From contig MU129044.1 of the NCBI GenBank assembly GCA_014904985.1, positions 99,498-163,497 of the forward strand: DNA of 64,000 nt, read 5' to 3'. Position numbers and translations under genes: made by a program. Position 1 is the first letter of the stretch; each line of letters starts with the position of its first letter. This DNA is from Hydnum rufescens UP504 (Eukaryota; Basidiomycota; Agaricomycetes; Cantharellales; Hydnaceae). The notes beneath the pieces were generated by a model. The model did no database searches and was not told the DNA's origin. It saw nothing but the letters and a program-made list of their open reading frames with translations. Of this stretch, positions 30,475-64,000 are shown piece after piece.

Positions 30475-30664
30475 ATTCTACAGTATATATATATTAATTA
30501 TTAATTTTGTTGACTGAGATTTTGCAAAGTGCCCATAAATGAGGCACTTGACATTGCTTGATGTCAAAATATTGTCAAATTGTAATTGCCAGTTGTCAAA
30601 TTCAGCTTTTTGATCATCACTTGACATCAAACTTGATTTCAGCCATTTAGGCCTACCTAAGACA
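30475..30664. other. Short AT-rich spacer
   Basis: Contains a TATATATATTAATTATTAATT stretch and TTGACATCAA-type short repeats. No gene seen. Confidence 0.4.
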
Positions 30665-35136: not shown

Positions 35137-35499
35137 AAACTTTCTATTCATTACCGCCTGTCCTAGAATAGTTTTCAGAGGGTTCCGAAGCCCTTTCCTT
35201 TCTTTCCCCCATTATGTCTTTGCTTGGCCAAAAGGCAAAAGCATTGGTGACAGCCCAGGGCAACTACTTTGACCCTTCAAGGCCCCATTTTAACATATGA
35301 AACCCCCCCCTTGAAGGGTCTGGTGATATCAGGTTATTACCTACTATGAGAGGCACATTACCTACTATGGGGGATCCAGATCACCTACTACAAGATGGAA
35401 GTTATCTGCCATACAGGATTCAGATCACCTACTACAGAAGGCAAATCACCTGCTATGGGATGCAGGTTACCTACTATGGGATGTGAGTTACCTACTACA

Positions 35500-38500: not shown

Positions 38501-38858
38501 TGGATTCTCTGTAGTAGTAACATGTATCTTGTAGTAGGTAATAACCTGATATCCCCAGACCCTTCAAGGGGGGGGTTTCATATGTTAAAATAGGGCCTTG
38601 AAGGGTATTGTAGTTGCCCTGTTATGATTGGTGAGGCACAATAGGAAGAAATTCGAAGCGGAAAATCAATTGTCATTGTCCAGATGGCAGAAGGGCAATG
38701 AAGAGGCACTCCTCCATCCACTAACAGTCTCAGAGGATCCATATTGAGTTATCCTGGTGATGAACTACCATCTGAACAGAGTTTGAATCGGAGGAAGCAC
38801 AACAGTGTCATTTTCCTTGGAAGGGCACTGATGGTCAGTCAATGTATAAGCAGGCTGG

Positions 38859-39332: not shown

Positions 39333-39442
39333 CTGGTGGAGTGTGTAAGAATGACTCCTACACAGTCACATTCCGTTACACCAACTGTCTTCTGACGTGC
39401 CTATGGGCCGTCCGAAGATGGTAACCCTAGCCCCCTATCAAA

Positions 39443-42400: not shown

Positions 42401-45400
42401 GAGGCCTACTGGTGAGTTGGGAATAGCGAACACCGAATACCTGCTACCCAAGCCGGTAGCCACTCAGAAAGTTTCACTGTCTCACGAATAACTAAAAGTT
42501 CCCTTGGAAGAACCTCCGACTCTTCCCCTCAATGCAAGACAGGCAAGGGGAAGGTCTATGCTGCACAGAATACTTGCATACCGGGAGGATATGTATCCAA
42601 AATTCCAATATACGGTAATTTTGATCACCGAAATGGGACACAACTCATCGAGAAACATGTCCTCTGGTGAGGACGGGACAGTTTCCTGGCCTCCACCGAC
42701 TGTTTGGTCAACACAGCTAATGACGTGTACCTGTCCATCGCCAACCCTTTGCCCACGCCCAAGTACGTACGAAAAGGGGAAGTACTAGGTCTAATGTTCG
42801 ATCCTGTGGCCTGTCTGGCCAAGGAAGATAGTCTAACAACCAAAGAGAAGGAGTGATTCTATCAATGGGCCGCACTGGTACGAGCATTAGTGGAAGGGTC
42901 CCTCAACCAGAAGGACCTAAATCACCCCAACAATGAAGGAAAAGCGACCCAGTCAATGGCCCCGACCAAGAGCGAAGAACCCAGCAGTTGGGGTCCCAAG
43001 ACCGCTGAATCCAGTAGTATGGACACGCTTGATTCCAAAGACCTAGAGAAGCTCGTGGACATGGATCCATCCTTGCCAGCTGAGCAAAGAGCCCAGATCT
43101 ACCAGGTACTACAAAAAAACGAATTGGCTTTTGGGTTCGACGGACGATTGGGAAAGCACCCTACCAGGGTGCATATAGAACTCAAAGTGGGGACAAAACC
43201 TATTTCGGCAGCACTGTACATTGCCTCACCCACCAAATGTGAGCTTATCAACAAACAGCTCAACCTATGGTTGAAACAGGGTGTAATCGAACCATCCAAC
43301 AGCCCTTGGGGAGCCCCCGTACTTATCGTGCACAAGAACGGCAAGGATCGACTCTGCATAGACTGGAGGAAATTAAACGCGGCCACCATAGTGGACCAGT
43401 TCCCCATTCCCTGGCAGACGGACATCCTGCAGGCTCTTTCAGGGGCTCAGTACTTGTCCTCCTTTGACACACTAGCAGGTTTCACCCAGCTAGAATTTGA
43501 CAAAGTCTCCCAGCCCTATATGGCTATGAGAACTCACAGGGGCCTTCATCAGTTCACTAGAATGCCCTTTGGCTGGCGAAATGGCCCACCCATCTTCCAA
43601 TGAGTCATGCAAGAAATTTTATCCCCCTACTTATGGGCGTTCACTCTAGTCTACATAGACGACATCATGGTGTATTCCCACTCATTTGAGGAACACCTTA
43701 AACACATTGACGTTGTACTGGATGCCATCAAAAGATCAGGAATCACCCTGGCACCTCATAAATGCCATGTAGGATATCGTAGCATATGGCTATTAGGACA
43801 AAAAGTATCTCGGCTAGGTTTATCCACGGATGCTGAAAAGGTACGAGCCATGGCTGCACTGGCCCCTCCCTGGCACTGAAAGGACCTGGAGACCTTTCTA
43901 GGAATGACAGTGTATTTTGCTGCCTATATTCCTCGTTTCTCAGAGTGTGCGGCACCGCTATTCGCACTACTCAGGAAAGGAGCGCCCTGGTACTGGGGGG
44001 CCGAACACGAAGAGGCCTACAGGGTGTTGAAACTAGCCCTCACATCCGCACCAGTGTGGGGTCACCCGGTCAAAGGACAGGGATACCGTCTGTACACAGA
44101 TGCTTCCGACGTTGCCCTTTCAGGAGCACTACAGCAGATCCAGCCTATAACCATACGAGATCTATGGGGTACTAAGACTTACGACCGACTACAAAAGGCC
44201 TACAACGACAAGAGTCCTATTCCCGAACTCACAACTAAACTATCGGACACGCACAATGACCAATCCCCAACAAACGACTGGGCCCAGAACTTCAAAGATA
44301 CCATTGTATTTGTGGAATGGGTTATTGCATATTGGAGTCGCATGTGCAAAGCCGCCGAGACGCGTTACTCGGCCACTGAACAGGAAGCCCTAGCTGCCAA
44401 AGACAGCCTGATCCGGTTCCTACCCTTCATCAAAGGAGAGCATATATTACTAGTAACCGATCACACAGCACTACAATGGGCAAAAACTTACAAGAACGCG
44501 AATCGACGCCTTAGCGCATGGGGGGCAGTATTTGCGGCCTTTCCAGGTATGGCGATTGTACACCATCCAGGCCGAGTGCACTCCAATGTGGACCCCCTGT
44601 CAAGATTGGAATCAACCCCCGAGGTAGTATCCCCCACGGACCAAAATATTCCAGAACTTGTAGCCAACGAGGATAGTCAAGCCAAGAGCTGGAACTGTTA
44701 CATGCACTCCCCCAGTCTTGGGAAAGCCGTATTTGTCCAAACGAGAGCCCAAGCAAAGGCCCAACCTGGTGCCATGGTGCCGACAACCCCTGTCCCAAGT
44801 AATGCAGGGGAAGTCACACAAGAGGACACAGAACCGCAATGCCTTCCAAGAAGAGCACCAGGGCTAAACCTAGCAGTCTCACCGGAGATTATATGTCAAT
44901 TTCAGGAAGGTTACAAGCATGATCCTGAGTTTAAGGCTATATGGGCCTGAACAAATCCCACGACAGGGGAAGAAAATGTTCCAGATCCGGACATTGAAAT
45001 CGAGCAATTTCGACATTTTACACAAGGACGTAACGGACTGATACTTTTTAAGGATGCCGATAATCAGTTCAGGCTCTGTGTACCATGGAACAAACAATTG
45101 GACCTGGTCAAAGAGGCACATGACTCCCCCCATGAAGCAGCGCACGGGTGGTGGGGAAAAACTCTGGAAGTGCTGTGGCGAGGTTACTACTGGAAGTCCA
45201 TGCAAAAGGATGTTATATGGTATTGTGACACCTGCAATGTATGTCAAAAAACCAAACATGATAGGTCAGGGCCTAAAGGTTACCTGGCCCCAATCGAAGT
45301 TCCTAGCCTGCCATTCGAAGTGATCAGCATGGACTTCGTGACAGGACTACCTGAATCAAAGGGACATGATGCTATACTCATAGTAGTGGACAAACTTACC

Positions 45401-46852
45401 AAGTATGGAATGTTCATACCAACAACCACACGGGCCACGGCTGACCGAGTAGCGACTTTGCTATACCGAGAAGTATACAAACATTTCAGGTTGCCCAAAT
45501 GGATAGTGAGCAATCACGACCCTCGGTTCATAAGTAACTTTTGGCGGGCTCTGGCCAACTATTTTGACACCCGACTGGCTATGTCCATGTCGCACCATCC
45601 TCAAACAGATGGCCAGACGGAGGTCATGAGCCAGCATCTGGAGACCATGATTCGGTGTTATGTGAGTACTGATCGTACGGACTGGGTCGACTGGCTAGAC
45701 GTGTTGGCCTCCGCCTACAACTGAGCAGTGCACTCGTCCACCCAAGCCACCCCCGCAGAACTATTATTAGGGTATATTCCCCGGACTCCTCTACGACTAT
45801 TACAGGAGGAAGCCGAACCCCTGCAGATGACCAGCCCCCTGGCCAACAGTAGAATAAACGCTCTCAGAGTACGACGAGATCTAGCCAGAGACGCTATAGT
45901 GAGGTCGGCCGATACTCAAGCCTACCAGTATGACAAAAAATGTTGAGCCATACTATACAAAATAGGCGATGAAGTACTAATAAACCCCCATACCCTAGAA
46001 CTAGTGGATGTTAAAGGTACTGGTCACAAGTTCATGCAACGTCGCATAGGGCCTTTTGAGATCACGGAAGTGGTTAGCCCCACAGCTTACCAGTTAAGAC
46101 TGCCTGATTCCATGCCAATGCATAATGTGGTCAATCTAGAGCACCTGACACTGTATAGATGGTCAGAAGACAAGGACCGCCCCCGACTCACAAACCCACA
46201 GGACAGATTGTGGTCTTCAGAAGAGTATGAGGTGGATGAAATTATTGACCACTGACACAATAAACAAAAATGTTCAATTGAATATCTAGTCCGCTGGTTA
46301 GGCTATGGCCCAGAACACGACTCCTGGCAATCCAGCCGCAACCTAAGAAACACCCTGGAGGCCCTACAGGAATACCATAGGAAAAAAGCACCCCCTATGC
46401 CTAAGGCCACCACTCCCATCGAGATCTACTTCATGGGGTTAGCCGAACTGCACACTTCAAACACACGCCAACCATACTGCCATATCATGATCTCCCATAC
46501 CAACTTCAATGATCCACAATCAGCCCATTACGTGGGTAGCCAACATCACGGCTACATGTTCTGGGACATGACGGCTGGAGTCTTCACGCCACCGATGCTG
46601 CAGCTTACACGAACGGGACACATGGGCATACGCGACTTCCTGGGCCGTAGGCCTATGTACAAGCTAATCTCTGCCTCTCCCCCCAGTAGTCTACTTTTGG
46701 CCTTTGTCCCCACCTTCCTCCAACCTATATGCGATGTGCAATACGAGAACAAACAGTTCTTCATACGCAAAGAATGCCTAGACACCCTACGGCTTCCTGG
46801 GAGTACGCTTGGACCCAGGCAGACAAAAACAAGCACGAGTCAAAGTTCCTGA
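39443..46852 (+). pseudogene. Gag-pol polyprotein in one frame with 15 TGA codons
   Basis: A single reading frame over 7.4 kb with no frameshift, TAA or TAG. Internal TGA at 40250, 41108, 41300, 41303, 41552, 41645, 42413, 42668, 42854, 43601, 43877, 44948, 45722, 45944 and 46253. Gag has a Pro/Gly-rich middle (about 40620-40900). Zinc knuckle CRHCGNEWHYDYNC is at 41670. Protease is VADSGAAATLVSARCL (42112). Reverse transcriptase has KNGKDRLCIDWRKLN and catalytic YIDDIMVYS (43655). RNase H has YTDASDVALSGAL (44095). Integrase has a zinc-binding HH..CDTCNVC (about 45130-45245), MDFVTGLP (45330), SNHDPRF (45510) and TDGQTEVMSQ (45608). Chromodomain is IEYLVRWLGYGPEHDSW (46277-46327). Gag and pol are fused, as in several fungal chromoviruses. 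Confidence 0.95.
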
Positions 46853-48836: not shown

Positions 48837-51800
48837 GCTGGGCTCCCCACTCAACAGGTTCCCCAATCTTCTGTCAACACCTCCATTCAGCCTGACACTG
48901 ACAGTTTTTTCAACTTTGACTATGGGTTTGATGCAATGGATTATTGTGTGCCCCAAGATCCCCATCCTATCCTCCACCCACAAGAAAGCCAGCACCTTAT
49001 CAAAGACTGACAATCCCATCACTCTTGCCAGCAATATGGTGCTGCTCATAAATGGAACACCATTGTTCTCCCAAGTTTAATTTGTCCCTACATGGCCTTT
49101 CATGTAGCCACGAATTCTGGGCACAATTGTGTCCCAAGTCCTCCCAAGATGAAACAGTGTAGCTGTGGAGAGCACAACGTCCGGCTCAAGGTTACATGTG
49201 TCTGCTTAAAACGTATGTCTTCTGATCTGCTGTTGGAAACTGAATACTTATCCATGTTCTTGCAGGTCTTGACTCAATCATACTGTATGTCTGCAAATGT
49301 CTGCCAGCACCTTGGCAACTCATCGAACACAGACTATTTCTGTGTGCTCCAGTCTTTCCTAAGCTTGCTGTCAAGCTTGATATGCTTGAGTTTGCTGCCA
49401 GCCTCTTCATTAATTTGGCCCCAAATGAAATGGCCTGGGCAGTGATGCTCACAGAATTCCTCAGTACTTGAGGCTACATCTTTGCTTTTGCTGTGAGTGT
49501 TTGGGATTCCACTACACCCATTGTATCTAATGCTTCTATCACAAAGGATTCACTTTGGTGATGCTTTGGAAATGCACTTGCGCAGTACCAGGTGCTGATG
49601 CAGGTCATTGAAGCTGAGGTCAGCAAATCTGTTGAAGTCGCCCAGAATCTAGCTCTTGCTGCCTCTGTGACACTATCTGCCAAACATTTCAAGGCAGAGC
49701 TCCCAATGCTCGATGAATCTACACCACTCTTTGAATGCTCTTACCTCAATGGCCAAAGTGAGGATGGCCATGTCCCACAATCGAAACATGGTGAAGCTCG
49801 TCAGTGCCCCAGTGTGTACCTTCATTCCCACTGCCCTCTTTGCTTTGGAGGGAGACCCCCAGTGCCTCAAGAGAACACATCAGTACATTTACAATAGACA
49901 TTTTGAACTTGCACTAATGGATGCTCATTCCAGACCACATGTTGTGGTCTGCATAGATGCCAACTTCCAGCAGAAACAGAATCATGACTTGGATTGTCAA
50001 AAAGGCCATGAGAGGGAAGAGGGTATGAGGGATCCCCCAATATTCAGTCCACGCACTGTCCAGATATCAGAAGCTAATCTGAAGGAGTGGGAGGCAAATG
50101 TTGATGCCATTTGGAACAAATTGCCCTCTAACACTGGCTTGAAGCACAAGGCTGCAGAGTTGGACATTAGCACCCTGTACACTGAGGACAAGTGCAAACC
50201 TGGCATGCTGATCCCCAACTCATGCACTGACTTGTGAAGCAAATCATTTATTGCCGCTGATAGTGATTGCATTAAGGCTTCAACAATCTACTTTTCTGAT
50301 ACCGGCATGATGGTGATTTTGTGCCGTCATGATATAGTCCTTTTCTGGGCTAATATGTGGACTGCTGGCGAGAAGCAGTTCTTTGCCTTAGCACTGCTTG
50401 CTGCCATCATGGCCGAGCTCCCTTCAGATTGGACACTCAGGTTCGTATATGACATCACATGTCAAATGCACCAAAGTCTGATCAAGTGGGATTTCTTGCC
50501 TGAGTATCTCCCCTGAATCCTCTTTGCCATCTCTGTTTTCCATGCGTATGGACACCAGTGGGTGTGGCAATTATGGTACCACCCACGAAAGGCTGGGATT
50601 TGGGGACTCTTGGATGGAGAGGGCTGTGAACGGTTTTGGAGCATGCTTTGTCAACTTATTCCTGTTTTGTGCATCACTGGGGTAAGCTCTCCATTCCCAT
50701 TTCATGGCATTGCATACTAATCATTCAACATGTCATAGTTCCATCATCATCAATACATCTTGAATCTCCAGATTGCCCATATTCATGGAATACAATTGAT
50801 GGGTATGGCTGAGTGGCTTCAGTGGCATATCACCAAAACAACAAAGTGTCTTGTAGATGCTCAGCCGAAGCTTGAGGCCTGCAGCCATTCCTCCTCCTTC
50901 CTTCATCAGCAGTTCACTGAGCAGCACATATATCAGAGCAAGCCTCTTACTCATATGCCCTTCTGAACTACTTACCTAACACCTGATCTAATCAACCATT
51001 GGAATAGGGCAATCGAAAAATAGTGGTATAAAAGCCACAGAGAAGATTGTCACCTTATGGGAATCAGCCTCCGCCATGAAGGCTGTGATTGCATCACTCA
51101 AGAGCAAGCTTATGAAATATGTCTTGACTGATTCCATTGCAGTCACTAGCGCTCAATTTGATGTACTGACGAATATTGAGGCAAAAAACTCATGTCCTCA
51201 CCCATCTCCAGAAAGACATTGATATCACAACAAACCATATCAATCTTCATGACAAAGTCTCTGCAACCAGGCTGAATGAGATCAAAAAGCAGCTGTTTTT
51301 CGCATTACAAATGAACATGCACACTGTGAAAGCCTGTCTCTGTACTAAGCTTCAAGAGTGAAAGTTTGAGCTTGCAAACCTTGAATGTGCCTATTGTAGC
51401 AAGCAAATGGGTATGTTGAAATTTATGCAATCCTACCCACTATAATACTGATCATTGAAATGATCATAGACCAGAAAACTTGGTCTCATATCAAAGATGC
51501 CATGCACTGCTGTGAACCAATGATTACTGGGCTTGCTAAGAAGACAATGGCATGCTAAGGCAAATGGTGCAATTGCAAACAACCGATACAGTGGCAGCCA
51601 ATGCAATCCTCCCTCCTGCTATCATCCTCAAGACCCTTTTCAAGCTGGACATAGACGATGACACCTGGCATGATATTGGGTTCAAGGACCTGGAGGAATT
51701 CAGGGGTGTTCTGCCTCCCTGGCTGAGTGACAACACTGTTCAAGCTGGTATATGTTTTGACCAAGAGGTTCTGAACTGTGAGGGCGAACTTGCATGCTGT

Positions 51801-52429
51801 CATATGGAGTGTGCAGTGATGCAGACCTGGTTTGAAGAAGAGTATGAGGCTACCAGCTTTGCTGAGCAATGCACACCAGGTAGGCACAGGCATGTACTGT
51901 TGACTGATGCTGATATTTGTGGCCTTCCAGATGCAGATTTGAAGTACCACCTTCAAAGTCATCTGCACAGCTTGGGAATGCCAGGTGAGACATGGCAATG
52001 AAAGATGCCAGCTTTGGCATCAGTGAGACCATGGCTAGAAATGGTTCAAGCCACACTATTTGTTCCAACTCATAAGCAATGATTCACTCCTGATGAAATC
52101 TCCTTGACACCTAACAATGACCTTGATATCCAGTCATCAGATGATGATGGCAAGACAGAGCTGGAGCCAGTAACTATCTGTGACACATATGTCATGGAGG
52201 AGATAGATCACCAAGCATGAGAGCAGGTGTGGGAGGCAGGAGAAGGTGATCCTGAGTAATATCTCTGTTCAGCCAATGACTTGACATAGCTTACAGTCAT
52301 CTTCATCAGCTCCCTCCCATCATATTTTGTCCTACTTTCATCTCTCCCTCTCTGCTGGCCTTATCGTTGCATCTGTCCTATTGTCATCTGTTTCCTGGCC
52401 CACCCTTACATTCCTCATGTCATTCTTCC

Positions 52430-52775
52430 ATCTTGTGCTCCTTGCATCATCCCCATGTTTCTTGCATCATCCCTGCATTTCTCGCATCATCCCTGCATTT
52501 CTCACATTGTCCCCATGTTTCTCACATTGTCCCTGCATTTCTTGCATTGTCCCCACATTTCTCACATCATCCCTGTGTTTCTCACATAGTCCTTGCATTT
52601 CTCACATCATCCTCACATTTCTTGCATCATCCTCACATTTCTTGCATCATCCTCATGTTCCTTGGATCGTTCTTGCATTTTTCACATTGTCCTCATGTGT
52701 CTGCCCTTGCACTCTTCACACCATCCTTGTGTATCTCACATCATCCTCCAGTTTCTCACATCATCCCACCTTGGT
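52430..52775. repeat. Minisatellite of about 15-20 bp units, inverted relative to 24 kb array
   Basis: Units such as TTTCTCACATCATCCTTGCA repeat about 18 times. They are the reverse complement of the family at 24031-24510. Open frames over it (SHIILTFL-like) reflect the repeat. Confidence 0.85.
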
Positions 52776-52784
52776 CAGTCACCT

Positions 52785-53150
52785 AAGCCTACCTAGTTAG
52801 GTACCACTTCTGGGCAGATAATGGTACCTAAGTAGGTCCCATCACTATTCCAGCCAAAATGGCCATTTTTATGATTTCACCTCCTGGCCCAGAATTGGCC
52901 AAAATGGCCAAAAATTGGCCAAAACTGGGACTTAGAGAATCTCAGACTTGTAGCAGGCCATATGGGCTTATTGGGGATAACATGTTCCATTTATAATTAT
53001 TTATTTATTTATTATCACTGCTACCCCAGTCAGTGGGGTTTAATTTGGCAGTTCTGTTTTATTCTTACTGAGTTGTTTATTTTTTATTTATTTATTTATT
53101 TAAAAAGTCACCACTCACCAGGGTGCGGTACCATCTGTAGAAATTTAAAA
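52785..53150. repeat. TAGGTACC box with TTATTTATT tail, copy 1
   Basis: Inverted pair GTTAGGTACC..GGTACCTAAG followed by repeated GGCCAAAATGG-like 10-mers, then TTATTTATTTATT tracts and a CACCAGGGTGCGGTACC border. A direct-repeat relative is at 57690-57870. Both precede minus-oriented hairpin arrays. Confidence 0.6.
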
Positions 53151-53177
53151 TAAAATTTTAAAAAAACTATCTAGTGG

Positions 53178-55668
53178 CACCACACCCACTTAGGCGGGTG
53201 TGGTACCATCCATAGAAACTTAAAAAACAAAAAACTATGTAGTAGTACCACACCTGCTTGGGCAGGTGTGGTCGGGGGTGTGGCTTGGCACTTCACCATT
53301 GGGTGTGGGTTGCTGTTGGGGTGGGTTGTCATTTTGGGGGTTTCAATTTGGATCCTAGAATCATACTGTATGTTAGTAAAAAAAAATTGAAGTGATGCAA
53401 AAGGAGCAGCTTGTGCTGCTCCTTTTGCATCGTTGCACATATAGAAATTTGAAAAAAAAACCTTTGTAGTACCACACCCACTGAAGTGGGTATGTGGTAC
53501 TGTTTTGTACCGGCTGGGCATCATTTTGGGGGTTCATGGGCGTCCATTCTCACAGCTGTCTTCGGCGGGTTGCGGGTCTTTGATTTGGGGGTTAGTGCGG
53601 GTTGTAGGCTCAGGTGAAAATCTAGGAATAAATAATGTGTTAGTAAGAAAAAATAAAAAAAGAAAGCCACACAAAAGGAGCAGCATACACTGCTCCTCTT
53701 GCATGATCCTACTTATCTTGAAATCACCACACACCTGCTGAAGTGGGTGTGTGGTTCGTCTGGGGTCCCTGGACCTTGCATCATGCATCCCCATTTCTGG
53801 GTTTCATTTGGTGGGTCACATTTGGGACTCTCTGTTGGCAGGTGCATTGTCATTTCCAAAGGGGGGGGGTTTCGTTTGGCAGTGGTTCAGGCAAGAACCT
53901 AGAACCTAGAATAATGAATTTGTTAGTTAAAAATAAAAATGGATGCAAAAAGAGCAGCAAGGCTGCTCTTTTTGTGCCCTTGGGGTGGATTACTTACCTT
54001 GTATAGAACCACACACCCACAATGGTGGGTGTGTGATTCATACCAGTTTTGGTGTCATCCCATGTCTTCATTTGGTGCATTGTTGTTTGTGGGCATGTTA
54101 TTGTTGGGGGGGGGGGGTGGGGGTTGCACTGTGGGTCTTCATTTGTATTTGTGGTGATACCTAGAATAAAGATTTATTAATTAAAAAATTAAAAGCGATG
54201 CAAAAAGAGCAGCTTTTGCTGCTCTTTTTGCACCATAGTATCTATTGAGGGGGGGGGGAACTCACCTGAACTAGTACCACACCCCCACTGAAGTGGGTGT
54301 GTGGTACTCCCTTTGCACCCTGGTTGCATACTTGGTTCTGTACAGGGGGCTGGTTGTCACTTGGGCAGGTGTTTTGTTTCATGGGTCTTGGTTCAGATCC
54401 TAGAGTGAGAATGTTGATTAGTAAAAAAATTCAAAGTGATGCAAAGGGAGCAGCTTACACTGCTCCTTTTGCATCATTGTACATATAGAAATCAAATATA
54501 AAAAATAAAAACCTTGTAGGACCACACCCACTTCAGTGGGTGTGGTCCTTGGTTTGTACCACAGTCATGCGGTTTGTACTTGGTACAGGGCTTGGTTGTC
54601 ATGTTGGGGGTTTGAACTCTCACGGGTTTCATTTGGTGGGTCTGTTGCCATTCTTGTGTGTTTGCTTGGTGGGGTCATGAGTTCAGACAACCTAAAATAA
54701 TGTATAATACATTAGTAAAAAGGAAAAAATAAAAGCCACACAAAAGGAGCAGCATATGCTGCTCCTTTTGCATGGTTATATGCTCACCTTAAAATTACCA
54801 CACACCGGCTGAAGCAGGTGTGTGGTTTGTCTCTTTGTGTGGCACATCATCATTCAGGGGTCCCCTCTGCAGGCATGTTATCATTGTGGGGGGGCTTACT
54901 TCGTGGGTCTTCAGTCTTCATTTGTGACAATACTGTACCTAGAATCAAAAGTGACGCAAAAAGAGCAGCTTTCACTGCTCTTTTTGCATTGTCAGGGGTA
55001 CATTACATACTGGTATAGAACCACACACCCACTACTGCAGATGTGTGGTTCTCTCTGTGCTGTGTCATCATTTGCAGGGATGTTTTTGTTCTGTCGAGTG
55101 TTTCGCAGCTCTTCATTTGTGATGATATCTAGAATAAAAAATCATTAGTTAAAAATAATTAAAAGCGATGCAAAAAGAGCAGCTTTCACTGCTCTTTTTG
55201 TGTTGTTGGGGGTGCGTTACATGCCTTGTATAGATACAACCACACACCCACAGTAGTGGGTGTGTGGTTCATCTCTTCATTCATGGGTCTCCTTTGTGGG
55301 CAGGCTTGCTGCTTGGGTCTTCATTTATGGCAATTCCTAGAATAAAATATAATTAGTTACAAAATTAAAAGTGACACAAAAAGAGCAGCTTTCGCTGCTC
55401 TTTTTGCACAGCTGCATCTATTAGGGGGGGAGAGACTCACCTTAAATAATACCACACCTGTGCAGTGGGTGTGGTTCCTGGGCTCACTCATTGGGTGGCC
55501 TGTCATTTGTTGTTTTGGTTTTGATCTGGAGGAATAGAGGCTACGTTAGTATAAAAATTCATGGCAGCACAAAAAGAGTAGCTTGTGCTACTCTTTTGCA
55601 CTATTGTATTTACTGAGACAAAACTTACCTTATGACCACACACCTGCATCAGCAGGTGTGTGGTCATG
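53178..55668 (-). repeat. Array of ten intron-shaped hairpin units, minus orientation
   Basis: Intron-type hairpins (CAAAAAGAGCAGC/GCTGCTCTTTTTG) start at about 53393, 53671, 53942, 54199, 54438, 54738, 54955, 55169, 55374 and 55567. They alternate with exon-type hairpins (CACACCCAC/GTGGGTGTG) at about 53178, 53247, 53470, 53727, 54009, 54275, 54519, 54797, 55019, 55238, 55450 and 55634. Read on the minus strand, the best-resolved introns are 54265-54161 (105 bp), 55440-55337 (104 bp) and 55629-55526 (104 bp), with donors GTGAGT or GTAAGT, branch TTAATTAAT-like and acceptor CTAG or CCAG. Some donors have decayed (for example 53710, 55220). Presumed exons are 90-200 bp and lean to Asn/Pro/Thr/His codons. 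No single long ORF could be joined. Confidence 0.8.
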
Positions 55669-55689
55669 TGGTTGTGGTCATGTGGTCGC

Positions 55690-55740
55690 AGTCGTGCACT
55701 GTTGCTGCTGTTGCTGCTGATGCTGCTGTTGTGTCATGGT
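55690..55740 (-). repeat. CAG/CAA trinucleotide repeat, copy 1
   Basis: A GTTGCTGCTGTTGCTGCTG tract (plus strand) would read as a short polyglutamine run on the minus strand. It sits just outside the first exon-type hairpin, as does copy 2 at 61142-61206. Confidence 0.7.
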
Positions 55741-55764
55741 CATGCAGTCACTTGCTGGGTGTGG

Positions 55765-56445
55765 CTGCATAGAGTTCGAAATTCAACACTGGCAATTGCT
55801 GATACTCAAGAAGTGCCCAAGCACTGGTGCTGCAAGCACAGTACACAATAGTACCAAGCATGTATATTATAAATAAATACTATATAATAAAAATTTGTCC
55901 AGGAAAACCTGAAGAAGAGGATGGTAATGAGTCAGAGCTCAATAAGGCATGAGACGGCTAATTACAGAGTGGATTGGGCCACTTCTACGCATCAGAATTG
56001 GCCCAAATTTGAATATAGTAGTGTTATATATACACTCTACATGGGCAATTAATTATCTTGGACAATTTTTGCATTTTTCAATTTTTCATGCCTTCAATTC
56101 CCTAAATAGGGAATTGAAGGCATGAAAAATTGAAAATGCGAAAATCATCTGAGATAATTAATCGCCCATGTAGAGTGTATATATAACACTACTATATTCA
56201 AATTTGGGCCAATTCTGATGCATAGAAGTGGCCCAATCCACTCTGTAATTAGCCATCTCATGCCTTATTGAGCTCTGACTCATTACCATCCTCTTCTTCG
56301 GGTTTTCCTGGACAAATTTTTATTATATAGTATTTATTTATAATATACATGCTTGGTACTATTGTGTACTGTGCTTGCAGCACCCACCCACACTTGGGCA
56401 CTTCTTGAGTATTGGCAATTGCCAGTGTTGAATCTACATCTTGCT
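55765..56445. repeat. Palindrome 1, centre about 56105
   Basis: The two arms of about 340 bp are mirror images, with centre CCCTAAATAGGG flanked by AATTGAAGGCATGAAAAATT. Minus-oriented hairpin units lie to the left and plus-oriented ones to the right, so the palindrome lies at the divergent 5' ends of both arrays. The arms contain CTCATTACCATCCTCTTCTTC- and TATATATAACACTACTAT-type sequence. It could be a bidirectional start region or the fold-back point of an inverted duplication. Confidence 0.8.
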
Positions 56446-56494
56446 TCCTATCTCTGCAACCACAACAAGCAACTGCCTGAAAAGGCAACCACAT

Positions 56495-57675
56495 GACCAT
56501 GCACCCACCGCTGTGGGTGTGTGGTCACAAGGTGAGTATTTTTTCTAGTAGATACAATGGCACAAAAAGAGCAGCAAAAGCTGCTCTTTTTGCACTGCTT
56601 TGGAACATCTTACTAACATCTCTTTATTTATTTTAGATTGAGGCCTCATCCAATGCACAATGAGAGCCCAAACAGCCATGTGATGTACAGAAACATGATG
56701 CAGCAATGCAACATCTGGCAATGCGACACACAACAGTGCAACATGGCAACATGCCAAATGGCAACACGCCAAACAAAGATGCGCCAAACAAAGACACAAC
56801 ACATGGTAATGTGACACATGGCAACACAACCTATGGCAATGCACCAAACAAGCACACAACCATGCCAAATGAGGCCCCCAGGAACCACACACCCACCATG
56901 GTGGGTGTGTGGTAATGTGAGTCCCCCCCCAGTAACTACAGGCACACAAAAAGAGCAGCTTTCACTGCTCTTTTTGTGTGGTCTTTAACTCTTAACTAAC
57001 GTATAATCTTATATTCTAGGTCACCACTTCCTGCATGAATGAATACCTATGCAAGAACCCCATAACCCCACCTGTCGACACCTGAATCAGGGGACCCATA
57101 CAAACTGCTGCACATGTGAGCTGGAGTATGGCTCCAGTACCCCACACCTGCTGCAGCAGGTGTGGGGTACTACAAAGTAAGATTTCTTTTCATTTTTTAT
57201 TCTTGTGGCGCAAAAAGAGCAGCATAAGCTGCTCTTTTTGTGCTGCTTTGGAATTTTTTTACTGATGTGCATTATTCTAGATTGGGGCCTGTCCAACACA
57301 GGACGATAACCCACAAAACGACAAGAGCCCAAACAGTGACATGCCACACAGCAACACGACACAGCAACACAATACACAGCAACACGATGCACCAACACAA
57401 CACAGCAATGGGCCAACAACGCAACCACACCAAAGCCCACAACAATGCACCAAACGAGGGCATGGAATCACACACCCACCCCAGTGGGTGTGTGGTTCTA
57501 TATCAGGTAAGTCCCCACCCTCCTCAGTACCTACAGCCACACAAAAAGAGCAGTGAAAGCTGCTCTTTTTGTGTGGTTTTTGATTCTAACTAATTTAAAA
57601 ATTTTATCTCGCAGGTCTCAATGCCCCCTGCAAACAAATACTGACACAAAACCCCCATGCCCCCCCATATCCAGG
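56495..57675 (+). repeat. Array of four intron-shaped hairpin units, plus orientation
   Basis: Resolved introns: 56532-56636 (105 bp, GTGAGT, branch TTACTAAC, TTTTAG), 56917-57019 (103 bp, GTGAGT, CTTAACTAAC, TTCTAG), 57177-57280 (104 bp, GTAAGA, TTACTGATG, TTCTAG) and 57507-57614 (108 bp, GTAAGT, TCTAACTAAT, CGCAG). Exon-type hairpins end just before the donors at about 56495-56526, 56884-56913, 57137-57170 and 57469-57495. Presumed exons are 280, 157 and 226 bp, each leaving remainder 1 on division by 3. One exon frame reads GNTPNKDAPNKDTTHGN, a repetitive Asn/Thr/Pro/His sequence, ending NHTPTMVGVW over the hairpin. Confidence 0.85.
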
Positions 57676-57679
57676 CTGG

Positions 57680-58180
57680 TCAGTCAAACTGGGGACCTAA
57701 TTAGGTACCATTTTCATGGCAGAAAATGGTACCTAATAGGTCCCCACACAGTATGGCCAAAATATGGCCAAATTACAGCCATTCTGATTCATTTCAGCCA
57801 ATCCATGGCTGTGCTAGATTATTTATTTATTTATTATTATTATTACTACTATAATTATATACATATTATCCCCCCCAGGGTCTGCCACCACAGGGGGGCA
57901 TGGTTCCTGCAGGTCACACACCTGCATATACCCACCACACCCAAGTGGGGTTCATATGCCCCAGTCGGGGCTGGGTCCATTTGGGCACTCCCTCGAGGGA
58001 GTGGGTTTTCATTCATTGTCCTTCATTTGTTTGTGTTCATGTGTAATCGGGTGTGTGGTTTCATTCACGCAGTTGTTCGCAGTTTTCATTCATGGCATGT
58101 TCACAGATTCATGGTGGGCTGGGCTCAGGTTCTGGTCCAGGATCTAAAGAAATCAATATGAAGTTAGTTAGACATCAATG
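57680..58180. repeat. TAGGTACC box, TTATTTATT tail and spacer, copy 2
   Basis: ACCTAATTAGGTACC..GGTACCTAATAGG with GGCCAAAATATGGCC-like repeats and TTATTTATTTATTATT, related in direct orientation to 52785-53110. The rest (57880-58180) contains degenerate CACACC/GGTGTG pairs. An open frame through here shows no recognisable motif. Confidence 0.55.
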
Positions 58181-58182
58181 CA

Positions 58183-59017
58183 GTGCAAAAAGAGCAGCTC
58201 ACACTGCTCTTTTTGCACCACAAGAATAAAAAATAAAATGAAAAAACAAACTAACCTTGTAGTACCCCACACCAGCTGTGGCAGGTGCGGGGTACTGGGG
58301 CTGTGTACTCCGGCTCATTTGTGGGGTGGTTTGCATGGATCCCCCCATCATTCGGGTGTCGACAGGCAGGGTTGCTGGGGTTTTCACATCTGCATTCATT
58401 GGTGTTGACCTACAATATAATGTTATATGTGAATTAAAAGTTAAAGACCATGCAAAAAGAGCAGCTTTTGCTGCTCTTTTTGCATGGTTGTACCTACAGG
58501 GGCAGGGACTCACCTTATATAGGACCACACACCCACCATGGTGGGTGTGTGGTTCCCGGGGCCCTCATATGGTGCAGTCATGTCCTTGTTTGGCACATTA
58601 TCATACATTGCATCCTCATTTGGTGCATTGCTGTGTATCGCATCATTTGGCACATTGCCATGTGTCATGCATTGCCATTTGTCACATCGTTGGCGTGTTG
58701 CCATATGTTGTGTGGTTGGCATGGTGCCATGTGTCATGTGGTTAGTGCCATGCCATATGTTGTGTGGTGGGTGCATTGCCATATGTCGTGTTGTTTGGTG
58801 TGTCTTCGTTTGGGGCATTGCCATTTGGGCCCTGTTTTCATGGGTTTTCATCATGCATTAGACCCCAGGCCTCAATCTAGAAGAATACAAGATGTGTTAG
58901 TAAAAAGATTCAAAGAGGCGCAAAAAGAGCAGCTTCACTGCTCTTTTTGTGCCATTGTATCTACAAGAAAAAAAACTCACCTTATGACCACACACCCGCA
59001 TGGGCAGGTGTGTGGTC
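58183..59017 (-). repeat. Array of three intron-shaped hairpin units, minus orientation
   Basis: Intron-type hairpins at 58183-58218, about 58448-58488 and 58919-58952. Exon-type hairpins at about 58261-58295 (CCCCACACCAGC/GCAGGTGCGGGG), 58523-58553 and 58986-59017. The intron at 58980-58877 (104 bp) has donor GTGAGT and acceptor TTCTAG. The long presumed exon 58554-58876 carries ATTTGGCACATT/TTTGGTGCATTG repeats, read on the minus strand as NVPNKD/NAPNED. Confidence 0.8.
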
Positions 59018-59124
59018 ACACACTTGCCTTTTCAGGCTGTTACTTGTTGTGGTTGGAGATGAGAAGGAAGATGCGAAATTCAACACCAGCAATTGCCGAT
59101 ACTGAAGAAGTGCCCAAGTGCTGG

Positions 59125-60489
59125 TGTAAGCAGGAAACGGAAGTCAAATCCAACTACAGTCTGCAATATGGAGATGAGGATGAAGAGTGGAGATCATGGG
59201 GTCAGTCCATATGTTCAGGTCCAAATGAAAGATAGGTCTTTGGACAGGTGAAATTGTCCTGTATAGACAGAGCCTATCCAGACAATGAATGAAGGGGTTG
59301 TTAAGGCAGGGAATCACACCCTAGGTCCTCCTCTTGAGAGCCTATCAAAAGTGTGATCAGTGAAGTTTAGGTCTTGGAATTTACCCTGACACCACCAGCA
59401 GTTCAACTAGCTTTTTAACTGGGGATGGGGAGAAAGACAATGGAAATTCGCATCTCCTGCACTTAATATACATCACAGAAAAATGCTATGCTAACCGGTG
59501 GAAAGGTGGGGTTAAGGCAAAAATGATGAAAAAGGAATCAAGTCAAAAGCTTCAAAACTGAAGGAGATATTCAATTAACAAGTCAGAATAGGGGAATATG
59601 GCTTAACCAAGGTACCCCTCCTCTCCTACTGAACAGAATCCCTTGGGGAAAGGTGGAACTGGTCGCCCCAGACGTACCCTCCATCGGACATAGGGTGCGA
59701 GAACCATAATTGCCTTTAGTAATCAGAAAAGCGGAGATAAAAGTGAAATGAGACATGGGGAGACTAAATTACAGAAAGCTGAGTTCTAATCTGCTCATTT
59801 TTCCCTTGGTACCATTCGATGCGTATTTTTAGTATCTTTCCAGGGGTGGTCGTTTCTAATGAATCAGATCAAAAATGGTGGAGATATTTGCGAAATACTG
59901 AAAGATAGTGTGGAGCATGGGGTAAAATCAACCTGGAGGATGCAGTTTGCATCCAATAAACGCGTGTGTGGTACCGTTAGATAGGTATTGATTGTAGCTT
60001 TCTGGGGGTTATTTTGCAGAGTCGATTTGATCAAAAATGGTGGAGATATTCATGAAATACTCCTTGAGAGTATTGGAATAGCCCCTATTTAACATGTGAC
60101 TAATCCGCGAGTTGGATCCAAAGGATTAGGCAATCTTGATTATATAATTGGTACCCATATCTTGCCCTTGAGGTAATGGCACAGAACACTGGATTGAGCA
60201 TCAATGAAAAGGGCAAGTTGAATTGCCAAAACCACAATTGGCTGGACTCAAGGTAAATACAAAATCAGGTGGTTTGTTGAAGACCCTGATATGGACAAAT
60301 AGATGTCTCATATACAAGGTGGAGGAAAAACAAGTAGGCCACAGTTTTGAAAGAGGGGAATCCATGTTATTTAATAATAAAAGGAATGACAAGAGATGGA
60401 AGAGGCAGAGTCAAATATATTGGATTCGTTTGAGGAGGTAGTTGGGCAATCATGCAAATTCTATGTGGTGGGGATTTATCCCTCCAACA
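59125..60489 (-). mobile_element. LTR-like unit, copy 2, 1.37 kb
   Basis: Reverse-complement copy of 22653-24030 (ends TGTAAGCAGG..CCTCCAACA). It interrupts sequence that is continuous in palindrome 1 (AGTGCCCAAGCACTGGTGC at 55813), so it inserted into the second copy of that structure. Border duplication is not clean. It contains two degenerate internal repeats (about 59800-59900 and 59950-60060). Confidence 0.75.
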
Positions 60490-60499
60490 CCAGTGCTAC

Positions 60500-61060
60500 A
60501 AGCACAGCACACCTCAATAGCAAGCATGTAGATATGGAATAAATACTATGTAATAAATATTTGTCCAATAAAATGCAAAGAAGAAGATAACAAGTCAGAG
60601 CTCAATAAGGCATGATATGGCCAATTGCAAAGTGGATTGGGCCACTTCTATGCATCAGAATTGGCCCAAATTTAAATATAGTAATGGCATATATACACCC
60701 TACATGGGGGATTAATTATCTCAGACAATTGTGGCATTTTCAATTTTTCATGCCTTCAATTCCCTATTTAGGGAATTGAAGGCATGAAAAATTGAAAAAT
60801 GCCACAATCATCCAATATAATTAGTTGCCCATATAGGGTGTATATATGCCATCACTATATTTAAATTTGGGCCAATTCTGATGTGTGGAAGCAACCCAAT
60901 CCACTTTGCAATGAGGCATATCGTCCCTTATTGAGCTCTGGCTCATTATCATCCTCTTCTTCACATTTTTAAACAAATATTTATTATATATTCTGTATTC
61001 CATGTCTACATGCTTGCTATTAATCTGGATTGTACTTGTAGTGTCAGGACTTAGGCACTT
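60500..61060. repeat. Palindrome 2, centre about 60770
   Basis: Homologous to palindrome 1. Centre CCCTATTTAGGG is flanked by CAATTTTTCATGCCTTCAATT and its mirror. The left arm is separated from its array by the LTR-like unit. The right arm leads to plus-oriented hairpin units. Confidence 0.8.
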
Positions 61061-61141
61061 CTTGAGTATTGGCAATTGCCAGCATTGAATTTTGCAAGTA
61101 CGCAGCCACACCCAGCAACAGAAAGGCGAGCGCCCAACCAT

Positions 61142-61168
61142 GACACAACAGCAACAGCAACAGCAGCA

Positions 61169-61199
<31 letters not shown>

Positions 61200-61206
61200 C
61201 AGCAGC
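61142..61206 (+). repeat. CAG/CAA trinucleotide repeat, copy 2
   Basis: About 20 codons of CAA/CAG (polyglutamine if translated) end just before the first exon-type hairpin. Longer than copy 1 at 55690-55740. Confidence 0.85.
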
Positions 61207-61221
61207 CCCAGCACACAACCA

Positions 61222-61760
61222 TGACCACACACCCACTGATGTGGGTGTGTGGTCATGAGGTAAGTTTTGTCTCAGTAGATACAATAGTGCAAAAAGAGTA
61301 GCCCAAGCTACTCTTTTTGTGCTGCTGTGAATTTTTATACTAATGAAGCCTTTATTATTCCAGATCAAAACTAAAACCAATGACGGGCTGCCCAATGAGT
61401 GGCCCCAGGCAAACAAGGCCATGGCAAATGAAACCAGGGCAAATGAAATGACCAAATGAAGGTGTGAGAGGTGGCAACACAAACCACACACCCACTGTGG
61501 CGGGTGTGTGGTTTAACATAATGTAAGTCATTGTACACACCCAATGACACAAAAAGAGCAGCCCTGGCTGCTCTTTTTGTGTTTGTTTTAATTTTTAACT
61601 AACACATAATTTATTATTCTAGGCTATTGCCTGAACCACCTGCCAAATGAGATGCTGAAACACATTGTGCCAAGAACACCCCCCCAGATGAAACCCAGGA
61701 ATGGGAACACATGATGCAAGGCCACAGGGGCCCCAGACAAACCACACACCTGCCGAAGTG
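61222..61760 (+). repeat. Array of two intron-shaped hairpin units plus a broken third, plus orientation
   Basis: Introns 61260-61363 (104 bp, GTAAGT, ATACTAATG, TTCCAG) with stem AGAGTAGC/GCTACTCT, and 61523-61622 (100 bp, GTAAGT, TTAACTAAC, TTCTAG) with stem AGAGCAGC/GCTGCTCT. The exon between is 159 bp and ends in the ACACCCACTGTGGCGGGTGT hairpin. A third exon-type half-hairpin at about 61740 (CACACACCTGCCGAAGTGG) is not completed, and the sequence then changes. Confidence 0.8.
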
Positions 61761-61764
61761 GTAT

Positions 61765-63250
61765 AGAAGAAGGATTGGGAGCTCCGATGACTGTCAAATC
61801 AAACTCTGGTTCAGCCAGTGTGAAGATGGGAGGCTATATTTCTGTTGTTATTCAATGGGTTGGTTCGCTCTGATGGTTGATCACTCTCTACCAGGATGTG
61901 TGTGGTATTGATGGGAAATAGAATTGTGTATGGACTAGCTGTAGTCAATGATATATTGTGGGATGCTTATAGGAAGGCTTATACGTGTTGTGCTGGACTG
62001 TTTATTGATATTTGTGTGTACCTATTTGTATTCTCCTGGTCAAAATGTGGTTAAAATGCAGATTTGTGGATGGCTCTGTACTATTATGTGCTTGATCAGT
62101 GTGTTAATGTGACTTCTTCTTCTTTCTCAGAGACTTGACTTGAACTTTGTATTTGCTTACTTTTCCTTGGATGTCCAGCAACTCTAACCTTAGGTCCTGC
62201 AACTATCCTTGGCTCAGTATTTTGTGTAGAGGGCTTCCAGTGACTTAGTCTCAACAACCTTGTATATGACTTAGCTCCAGATGGCTTTAGATTAGTACTC
62301 TCTTAAGATGCAAGCAGGTTTGTTGACAGTACTTGATTTCCAGTAGTGAGAAGATGATGGTAGGATACAGGAAATCTGCCAGCTTTTATACCTTTCTGAA
62401 GGTGGCTGTGTTTAAGAGAAATGACTCCACCATGGGTGAGCCACACGCAAGTCATAGGTGAGAACAAAAGAAAAGATAAGGAGGTGAGTCACTCATAAGG
62501 TGGTTGCAAGGTAGGTGAGTCATTCATAAACAGAACAATAGGGTTGTCAAGGAAGGTGTTATCTTGGTTTCCATGTGTCATTTGTGGTAATGGGGGATGA
62601 AATCAAAGGATATTTCCAAGTTCTTGGAGATTAATTATTCATAGTCCAATGGTTAAGGTGTTTTTGTCACTGGTTGATAATGGGAACAAGTGCATTGGGT
62701 GGGATTCAATGCAGAAACAGCAGTTTTGATTCCTCAATTGGCGTGCTTAGTATCATTCGATGCGGATTTTTAACAGCTTTCTGGGTGTAGTAATTCCAAG
62801 CTGATCCGGTGCAAACTGATGGAGCAATTTGTAAAATACTGACAGTTGTTGGTTTGGATAGTAATTTTGATCTGGAGAATGCAATTTTGATCCATTCTCG
62901 GTGTTCTCAGCACTATTCGATGTGGATTTTTAATAGCTTTCCGGGTGCAGTGTTTTCAAGTTAATTGGATGTGAATTGACGGAGAAATTCATTAAATGCT
63001 GAGAAATGTGGATTAGGACAGTAAAATCAGTCTGGGGAGTGCAGTTTTGATCCATTTGACTCGTGTTTGGCATCGTTTGAAAGGTGTGATTCGTAGCTTT
63101 CTAAGAATGGTATGGGCGAGTGTTTCTGATCAAAACTGACGGAGCAATTGAACAAATTCCATTTTTATACATAGCCTCAATTAATTTCATAATTGATCAT
63201 GTGATCATTCCATAGGCTGGAATCCATAGAATTTTGCATTTTCTGATACT
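61765..63250. other. Gene-free region with decayed LTR-like repeats
   Basis: No gene supported. 62723-63165 has three degenerate direct repeats of about 150 bp with CATTCGATGCGGATTTTTAA and GGAGCAATTTGT-like motifs. These are the same type of repeat as inside the LTR-like units at 22653-24030 and 59125-60489, so this is probably an older related LTR. Confidence 0.45.
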
Positions 63251-63266
63251 GGATGTTTTTATCTTC

Positions 63267-64000
63267 CACAGTGGGTGTGGTAATTCCACAGTAAGTACAA
63301 CCATGCAAAAGGAGCAGCATACACTGCTCCTTTTGCATGGCCTTTCTTTTTTCTTTTTTTCTTTGTTACTGATGTATTATTTCTAGGTTGTCATCTGAAC
63401 TCAGGACCCGTGACCCCAATGAACAAACATGGGAGAACAACAACCTGCCTGCCAAACAAGACCCATGAATGGCAACAACACAAGTGCCAGACAAACCACC
63501 CACCCACCAAAGTGGGTGTGTGGTAATATTAGGTATGTCTACTAGTAATCCCATCAGTGCCAAAAGAGCAGCAGAAGCTGCTCTTTTGGCACCTCTGTTT
63601 TCTGTTTTTTTTACTAATGTATTATTATTCATTGTTCTAGGTCCCTTCCCTATGTGAAAACCCACACACAGACAAGCCGCCCAAGCCCCAAGTGCCCACC
63701 CCCTGAACATGATGATCAACAAGATCGATGAAATCACATGCCACACACCCACTGCAGTGGGTGTGTGGTAATACCTTGTAATTTTCAATTACAGGATGTA
63801 GGAAAGCACCAAAAGAGCAGCAAGAGCTGCTCTTTTGGTGCTTCCTTTGTTTTCTTTTTAAATTCTAAATTAATGTGTTATTTACTGATTGATCCGTCCC
63901 CCAGCATGAAAACCCACACAAAAAAGGGACATGCGCAGCCACCCGCAACCCGCAACCCGATCCAAGAGCTCAGTGCCTGAACACCCGCAATGTATGCAAT
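63267..64000 (+). repeat. Array of three intron-shaped hairpin units, plus orientation, runs to window edge
   Basis: Introns 63291-63386 (96 bp, GTAAGT, TTACTGATG, TTCTAG), 63533-63640 (108 bp, GTATGT, TTACTAATG, TTCTAG) and 63778-63904 (127 bp, GTAATT, TTTACTGATT, CCCAG). Stems are TGCAAAAGGAGCAG/CTGCTCCTTTTGCA, GTGCCAAAAGAGCAGC/GCTGCTCTTTTGGCAC and AGCACCAAAAGAGCAGC/GCTGCTCTTTTGGTGCT. Here the outer pair changed from GC to CC with matching GG. Exon-type hairpins at about 63267, 63500 and 63741-63768. Confidence 0.8.

Follow-up and report, generated by a model that had tools for sequence, protein, structure and literature searches.

Arrays of hairpin-bearing introns in Hydnum rufescens probably belong to a high-copy non-autonomous DNA transposon

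Introduction

What kind of genetic unit carries 22 nearly uniform introns, each with the same hairpin, on both strands of one short locus? The question is raised by a 64,000-nucleotide stretch of Hydnum rufescens UP504 (assembly GCA_014904985.1, contig MU129044.1, positions 99,498 to 163,497 of the forward strand), hereafter the window. A first-pass annotation of its letters proposed either an introner family amplified in one locus or a gene grown by exon–intron duplication, with a satellite-like repeat as the fallback. We followed the hairpin through the genome, and its units appear to be modules within a non-autonomous DNA transposon of high copy number.

Results

Intron-shaped units and a second hairpin

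All 22 units were recovered, at 53,398–63,838 (~53.4–63.9 kb of the window), with the hairpin between donor and branch site and both strands in use, as first described. Their order along the window is ten minus, four plus, three minus and five plus; the automatic annotator placed the first, weak unit on the plus strand instead. Three units, at 53,398, 54,442 and 55,171, have the degraded donors of old copies, and the branch region is missing from the unit at 54,957. A survey of 287 introns from 20 stretches, taking the best-scoring donor and acceptor for each hairpin, returned GTGAGT (94), GTAAGT (65) and GTATGT (33) as the commonest donors, TTCTAG (102) as the commonest acceptor, and a canonical branch-like motif in 241 introns. 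An Rfam search of the window at gathering thresholds matched no known RNA.

The initial reading missed a second hairpin (CCACACACCCRC..GYGGGTGTGTGG) that lies directly 5′ of the donor and often ends the exon. A best-stem score of ≥10 was reached upstream of the donor in 179 of 284 introns; control windows taken at these loci reached it in 40 of 284.

Genome-wide distribution

In the 63.2 Mb genome the exact intron-hairpin pattern matches 2,451 times on the forward strand and 2,462 times on the reverse, the two sets being largely the same hairpins viewed from both strands. The pattern read backwards has none, so the recurrence is not chance. Hairpin clusters are spread over the genome, and amplification confined to one locus was thus not borne out. 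Surroundings were inspected for 100 listed matches on four contigs (C1–C4), most hairpins appearing on both strands. All of these sit in arrays except two, one of them 520 bases inside an element terminus (L022:4030) and the other 12 bases outside a terminus and without splice signals (L026:5013).

Architecture of the elements

The arrays share one plan: between CA..TG termini, a palindromic centre is flanked by two arms whose introns point outward. Each module runs from an exon, usually hairpin-ended, through donor, second hairpin and branch site to the acceptor. Relative to palindromic centres, 216 introns point outward and 46 inward, and 25 are more than 3.5 kb from any centre; an unrelated palindrome (35–39 kb) was excluded by hand from this count. 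Four complete copies measured 5.2–5.5 kb. The terminus CASSYTGGTCAGTCA has 357 + 359 matches genome-wide versus 1 + 2 for its reversed control, so that defined termini recur in many interspersed copies, and we place the copy number at some hundreds. Terminal inverted repeats are short and imperfect. No transposase of the elements' own was found; the arms lack coding signal, and their longest spliced frame is 264 aa.

Exact target duplications flank 8 of the 15 end pairs counted (four of 7 bp, four of 8 bp); in a test of ten end pairs there were five (two of 7 bp, three of 8 bp). Judged by eye, L030 and L032 have 7 bp and the window element at 26492–30712 has 8 bp. The duplication is absent from seven of the 15 pairs, L031 and L034 among them on reading by eye, and from two looser cases outside the 15 (L014 4211–8615 and the palindrome L009:3589–6669). 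With interspersed copies, defined termini and target duplications in about half of them, a satellite-like repeat is a poor fit.

Elements in the window

Element 1 (52767–57671, plus strand) has arm A on its left, then the centre, then arm B, whose side is interrupted by element 2. It begins with the left terminus CACCTTGGTCAGTCA (52767–52781, plus) and is 84–92% identical to six other copies. Arm A (53355–55628) holds ten intron-hairpin units with minus-strand introns, those at 53906–53997, 54161–54265, 55337–55440 and 55526–55628 being clear. The palindromic centre (55781–56433) is 94% self-inverted with TATA-like stretches on both sides, and by eye would be a divergent promoter. Arm B carries four plus-strand introns: GTGAGT..TTTTAG with its intron hairpin (56532–56636), GTGAGT..TTCTAG (56917–57019), GTAAGA..TTCTAG (57177–57280) and GTAAGT..TCGCAG (57507–57614). 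An exon hairpin with a 13 bp stem and 4 nt loop (56884–56913, plus) ends three bases before the donor of the second.

Element 2 (57672–64000, minus strand) is reversed and nested in arm B of element 1, its terminus CAGGCTGGTCAGTCA at 57672 being flanked by element-1 arm-B sequence. Its far terminus was not found within the window, and the element reaches the window edge or beyond. Arm B (58144–58980, minus) has introns at 58144–58255, 58410–58513 and 58877–58980; the centre (60516–61021) is 84% self-inverted. The insertion-interrupted arm A (61260–63640, plus) has introns at 61260–61363, 61523–61622, 63291–63386 and 63533–63640, with a fifth, weaker one around 63809 (plus). Two bases before the donor at 61260 ends an exon hairpin with a 17 bp stem (61220–61257, plus). 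A different repeat of about 1.5 kb, delimited by its match to L015, is inserted into an exon hairpin of this element (61758–63281).

A 4.2 kb element of a second subfamily (26492–30712; termini CACCTTGGTCAGCCA / CAGACTGGTCAGCCA) has the 8 bp target duplication AGTAAGAT, a 2.5 kb, 98% palindrome (27579–30109) and a sole hairpin-bearing intron (27096–27203, minus).

Terminal similarity to KDZ transposons

Beside element 1 is a KDZ transposase relic (48957–51860, plus), matched by tblastn with the KDZ frames of L055, L056 and L058 at a best E of 2.4e-133; a Pfam scan of two of its frames assigned a family to neither. The genome holds at least 154 matches to PF18758 (KDZ), with 150 of 584 candidates scored. 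Terminal sequence is common to KDZ-coding and hairpin elements: the ends of L055, L056 and L058, which code for PF18758, are identical to those of the hairpin element L034 at 56–64 of 80 bases (shuffles ≤51), two of the three sharing 60–64, and the end of L057 matches the right end of the second subfamily (window 30712) at 56 of 80 (shuffles ≤48). Of the Kyakuja hallmarks, CA..TG is present, and the eight duplicated copies divide into four of 7 bp and four of 8 bp.

No arms lie inside the KDZ terminus in the four stretches scanned (L055–L058), and in L058 hairpin modules lie outside it. A stem scan at a set length found none in L055, none in L057 and only a terminal one in L056. One end of L055 matches, and its far end was not seen in 10 kb (C1:283500–293500).

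Arms without a recognisable protein

Spliced open frames reach 264 aa, and 14 of 49 spliced arms are longer than all 20 base shuffles. As this looked favourable to coding, a frame test was added, and it gave coding no support: only four of 49 arms fall in the top 5% when junction frames are randomised, and on average a share of 0.59 of the variants equals or exceeds the real frame in length. Only three of 49 arms exceed 60 dinucleotide shuffles, and an antisense frame is equal or longer in 38 of 49. Exons show no third-position excess; 63 of 225 exon indels are multiples of three; in a single L034 arm, the exon hairpin falls into each of the three frames; and an ATG in the window is ACG at the matching position of L034. 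We rejected a protein-coding gene family as a candidate, since neither junction frame, nor codon-position bias, nor frame-preserving indels spoke for one.

Some arms nonetheless carry protein-gene annotation. The H. rufescens model BS47DRAFT_1369568 aligns with a spliced reading, many gaps included, across 99% of the query and at 50% identity; three arm-B matches were seen, and gene models of the species span two of the predicted junctions exactly. The transposon reading would suggest that some H. rufescens gene models are transposon arms and not protein genes. The proposed exon–intron duplication survives in part: within an element, the exon bodies of some modules align with one another (z > 4 in four of 45 pairs, B1/B2 and A2/A3 among them). 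The "gene", however, is a transposon arm, and in our tests it behaves as noncoding.

Conservation of splice sites and hairpins

The comparison of divergent copies drew on 44 alignments and on those L034 introns whose donor fits the consensus (8 of 13); alignments below 350 bp or at ≥90% identity were dropped. The acceptor AG is kept in 59 of 59 cases versus 631 of 1063 control dinucleotides in exons (59%), and the donor GT in 58 of 62 (94%) versus 669 of 898 (74%). In seven close copies the figures are 68/71 versus 1311/1528 for GT and 67/70 versus 1011/1250 for AG. Non-CpG change in divergent copies is about four times slower in the intron hairpin (94/2053) than in the intron spacer (651/3156); in the close copies, hairpin change is 25/2081 versus 213/4388 in spacer. 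Among the close copies CpG change is about 0.21 whether in hairpins, spacer or exons; among the divergent ones it is unequal (0.31 intron hairpins, 0.36 exons, 0.49 spacer). The palindromic centre changes more slowly than exons in close copies (38/4116 versus 544/13521) and equally fast in divergent ones (901/6087 versus 1682/11272). On these comparisons, selection seems to act on splice sites that lie in sequence with no recognisable coding content.

Stem covariation amounts to 308 double changes among 208 distinct hairpins, against a mean of 141 and a maximum of 162 in 200 shuffles that ignore relatedness. We take covariation from this count because a first count of stem mismatches mixed two loop registers (G-U 143 versus A-C 148). 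In the register of the covariation count G-U outnumbers A-C by 203 to 127, the excess lying mostly in the loop-closing and outermost pairs.

Searching the genome with one arm-B exon 1|exon 2 junction (20-mer, ≤2 mismatches) gave no match, whereas the unspliced donor boundary gave 173 + 186 (control 5 + 1). The lack of a spliced DNA copy of this junction is expected if movement is by DNA, and lends splicing no support.

Discussion

We favour, with a probability of about 0.74, a family of KDZ-mobilised non-autonomous transposons in which two divergent noncoding RNAs, each spliced many times, are driven from the palindrome. Judging from the shared termini, a KDZ transposase would move the elements in trans. 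The palindromic centre would act as a bidirectional promoter, each arm would be transcribed toward its terminus and spliced into noncoding RNA, and the intron and exon hairpins may flank and expose the 5′ splice site. Repeated efficient splicing might then make the transcription unit look gene-like, which could keep the element transcribed, open to transposase and unsilenced. Several observations count against this account. Seven end pairs of 15 have no duplication, half of the duplications present are 8 bp, and published Kyakuja are described without terminal inverted repeats. In the divergent set the centre changes as fast as exons and CpG change is unequal. The KDZ stretches have no arms inside their termini, and the far end of L055 was not seen in 10 kb. 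Mismatch types in the stems do not separate selection on RNA pairing from selection on DNA pairing. Finally, 14 of 49 arms have frames longer than their base shuffles, and some arms carry protein-gene annotation.

The hairpin arrays could instead act at the DNA level, as transposase-binding or recombination sites or cruciforms, with incidental splice-like motifs. The units are symmetrical around the centre and resemble subterminal repeats, some centres are far more alike within than between elements (L014 is 98.8% alike within its own centre and 80.2% alike to L034 over a stretch including it), the stems have no clear preference for G-U over A-C, and the hairpins hold insertions of other repeats. 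We nevertheless think this unlikely, given the retention of AG and GT far above exon controls and the correct order of donor, branch and acceptor in most units. That the arms are, or recently were, multi-exon protein genes carried by a transposon, as published gene models have it, seems quite improbable: the long frames, the base-shuffle result and the database matches speak for it, but the real junction frame is no better than a randomised one, and dinucleotide shuffles, antisense frames, codon positions, indels, the three-frame exon hairpin and the ATG-to-ACG difference all go the other way. Least probable, and very much so, is an introner family accumulated in one locus. Near-uniform introns with canonical borders and one common hairpin invite that reading; among the matches listed on C1–C4, however, hairpins lie inside or beside elements and none in an unrelated gene, the exon hairpin recurs with the intron and an introner would not carry one, and the elements' own termini and target duplications explain movement.

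Within the transposon reading, a bolder suggestion, which we hold only tentatively and consider doubtful, is that the element spreads as a splicing substrate: near-ideal introns presented by hairpins are multiplied along two divergent noncoding transcripts, and spliceosome-linked surveillance reads a well-behaved gene and leaves the element open to transposase. If true, this would be selection for splicing itself, in an element that offers no coding exons to connect. The usual explanation for introns lies in the coding sequence that surrounds them. Splice sites that look selected in a noncoding parasite of some hundreds of copies therefore make the benefit of splicing itself testable with natural replicates; candidate benefits are transcription, chromatin state, escape from RNAi and R-loop suppression. 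PMC5851062 reports that in Cryptococcus poorly spliced transposon transcripts enter RNAi, and links introns to R-loop suppression. An element that amplified good introns would be that case in reverse.

Among the open-licence PMC papers listed, judged by their listings and the openings of their abstracts, none describes such elements; in passages of PMC7550596, Hydnum has a single mention, about enzymes. The intron-packed, two-armed noncoding build seems unusual for a jumping gene. Foldback-type and palindromic MITE-like elements are non-autonomous, with long inverted repeats and no coding capacity. The present elements resemble them in all three respects, but they have the palindrome in the middle and arms built of exon–intron modules in a set order, with conserved splice sites. 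The closest known transposons are the Kyakuja elements of Agaricomycotina, which belong to the KDZ superfamily. According to PMC12730594, Kyakuja of Laccaria have 7 bp target duplications and CA..TG termini, and the two Laccaria elements are described as without terminal inverted repeats. The elements here share CA..TG, 7 bp duplications in part of the copies, and terminal 80 bases close to those of KDZ-coding elements of H. rufescens; they differ in having no transposase found, a palindromic centre and hairpin-intron arms, and, from the Laccaria elements, in short imperfect terminal inverted repeats and in duplications of which half are 8 bp. Introners, according to PMC9860276, insert into many host genes. 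The many similar introns, their near-uniform length and their canonical borders are introner-like; unlike introners, the introns described here lie inside a transposon that has termini of its own, and they are accompanied by an exon hairpin.

Predicted hairpin introns lie in the arms of a repeated transposon

The 22 intron-shaped units described in the first-pass annotation are real features of the window. Most are about 92-130 nt long (78-148 nt in automatic annotation), and each carries in its middle an intron hairpin built around AAAAAGAGCAGC/GCTGCTCTTTTT. A second hairpin, CCACACACCCRC..GYGGGTGTGTGG, had been overlooked and often closes the exon ahead of the donor. At a stem score of at least 10, this exon hairpin was found at 179 of 284 introns versus 40 of 284 controls, typically about 7-8 nt from the donor of those 179. 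Compared with dinucleotide shuffles, the RNA folding of two units gave z = -4.5 and -9.2. Double changes in the hairpins number 308 against a shuffle maximum of 162, a count that leaves relatedness between copies uncontrolled, and mismatch types in the stems do not separate RNA from DNA pairing as the selected state.

The hairpin arrays are parts of a repeated transposon. Comparison of clusters shows that the four complete copies (L030, L031, L032 and L034, other stretches of this genome) measure 5.2-5.5 kb, and that the element starts with CACCTTGGTCAGTCA and ends with TGACTGACCAGCCTG. Of 15 end pairs, 8 are flanked by exact 7 or 8 bp target duplications: 3 of 5 read by eye and 5 of 10 by computation, one of these ten joining two like ends and perhaps mispaired. 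Two looser cases outside the 15, L014 and the L009 palindrome, have no such duplication. Between arms A and B lies a palindromic centre, which in the loci examined is 79-99.7% self-inverted and spans 0.35-1.07 kb, usually close to 0.65 kb. Relative to it, 216 introns point outward and 46 inward, nested copies included; a further 25 have no centre within 3.5 kb. Element 1 of the window starts at 52,767; its arm B is interrupted at 57,672, where element 2 begins in reversed orientation, and this nesting explains the strand switches along the window. Halves of one centre can be up to 99.7% alike (e.g. L014:5914-6565 and L033:3682-4329), and some centres are far more alike within than between elements, as if their halves evolve in concert.

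The exact intron hairpin has 2,451 forward and 2,462 reverse matches, largely the same hairpins, across 63.2 Mb in 539 contigs, so the single amplified locus initially proposed was not borne out. Read backwards, the pattern has no match in the same genome. A query with the palindromic centre gave 79 matches from 40 scored of 587 candidates, and one arm-B donor boundary gave 173 + 186 matches genome-wide versus 5 + 1 for its control, which together put the family at some hundreds of copies.

Other repeats lie in and around these elements. Related repeats of ~1.5 kb (TATAGAAGAAGGATTGGGAGC...) occupy window positions 61758-63281 and about 5362-6966 of L015, one inside an exon hairpin and one inside an intron hairpin, as if hairpins drew insertions. 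Transposon copies, too, sit in or at the hairpins of other copies (L018:8791; L030:1990-7205); the one in L030 has the plus-strand target duplication ACCACAC. At 35256-38621 the window has a palindrome distinct from these, 3.4 kb long and 89% self-inverted, which consists largely of ~21 bp tandem repeats. In the retrotransposon at 39431-46852, Gypsy-type as judged from its reading frames, the stretch 44951-45721 passes the Pfam cut-off for an integrase zinc-binding domain and matches the integrase core at a score under the cut-off.

Evolutionary signs of splicing and the coding potential of the arms

Across the seven orthologous copies of the close set, hairpins, spacer and exons all show CpG change of about 0.21. 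Non-CpG change is 0.012 in the intron hairpin, 0.026 in the exon hairpin, 0.024 in the donor and 0.009 in the centre; the branch (0.034) and acceptor (0.041) hexamers are not clearly slower than exons (0.040) or intron spacer (0.049). The divergent set comprises 44 alignments below 90% identity, each 350 bp or longer, with 8 of the 13 L034 introns, and its CpG change is unequal between sequence classes. Here the acceptor AG is retained in 59/59 cases versus 631/1063 exon controls, and the donor GT in 58/62 versus 669/898. Non-CpG differences rise from 0.046 in the intron hairpin through 0.070 (exon hairpin), 0.088 (donor), 0.105 (branch hexamer) and 0.134 (acceptor hexamer) to 0.206 in the spacer; the centre, at 0.148 versus 0.149 for exons, is not specially conserved at this depth. 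Such splice-site retention is what one would expect if splicing had been under selection in the lineage of active copies. Published H. rufescens gene models match two predicted junctions exactly, near query residues 87 and 245, and cross further ones with shifted borders.

The arms, joined at the predicted junctions, might be protein-coding, and in 14 of 49 the longest open frame does beat 20 base shuffles. However, only 3/49 exceed 60 dinucleotide shuffles, and an equal or longer antisense frame exists in 38/49. With junction frames randomised, the real frame falls in the top 5% for only 4/49, and on average a share of 0.59 of the variants is at least as long. These tests weaken the coding explanation. 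Nor is there a third-position excess among non-CpG differences between arm B and L031 (24, 22, 28), and of 225 exon indels, 63 have a length divisible by three. We consider protein-coding arms very improbable; as far as tested, the arms are noncoding.

The related idea of a gene grown by exon-intron duplication survives in part: the arms test noncoding, but whole modules (exon, usually ending in its hairpin, then donor, intron hairpin, branch site and acceptor) have partly been duplicated in L034. Four of 45 exon-body pairs there align above z 4 (B1/B2 10.4, A2/A3 8.9, A3/A6 5.5, A2/A6 4.7), and intron parts align more often (15/45 and 14/45), which places whole-module duplication in the history of the element. 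Among simpler relatives, the second-subfamily element at window 26,492-30,712 combines a 2.5 kb palindrome with a single hairpin intron; in L009:3589-6669, a palindrome of 3.08 kb that is 99.3% self-inverted, each arm has one outward intron. The ancestral form may have been a palindrome with one module. The L009 palindrome extends near-perfectly into flanking DNA near the contig end (3.56 kb in total, L009:3352-6906) and is either a true inverted duplication or an assembly artefact.

Candidate mobiliser and proposed mechanism

KDZ transposase domains are abundant in the genome (154 matches, from 150 scored of 584 candidates), and the proteins of the four KDZ-coding stretches examined, L055-L058, carry PF18758. 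The KDZ protein of L055 matches a protein of Hydnum rufescens UP504 at 100% identity across 85% of its length. Over the terminal 80 bases, L055, L056 and L058 share 56-64 identities with the two ends of L034 (shuffles at most 51), and L057 shares 56 with the second subfamily's right end, at window 30,712 (shuffles at most 48). Kyakuja elements of Laccaria are described as having CA..TG termini and 7 bp duplications but no TIRs (PMC12730594). We therefore regard the family as a candidate partner, itself non-autonomous, of the Kyakuja-type KDZ transposons, a KDZ transposase probably mobilising it in trans.

TATA-like stretches and the divergent layout suggest that transcription begins at both palindrome edges. 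Transcripts would proceed through the modules to the element termini, and the arm RNA would be spliced repeatedly. The 5' splice site would be left exposed between exon and intron hairpins, and folding of the latter would shorten the distance between donor and branch site. Because the arms encode nothing recognisable, any gain should come from transcription or splicing itself. Our favoured hypothesis is escape from splicing-coupled silencing, for which Cryptococcus offers a precedent (PMC5851062); R-loop suppression and intron-mediated enhancement are alternative benefits. No description of such elements was found in open-licence PMC literature. In kind, the element is a non-autonomous DNA transposon; what appears new is its build of two noncoding arms with multiple introns, in which a pair of hairpins flanks the 5' splice site.
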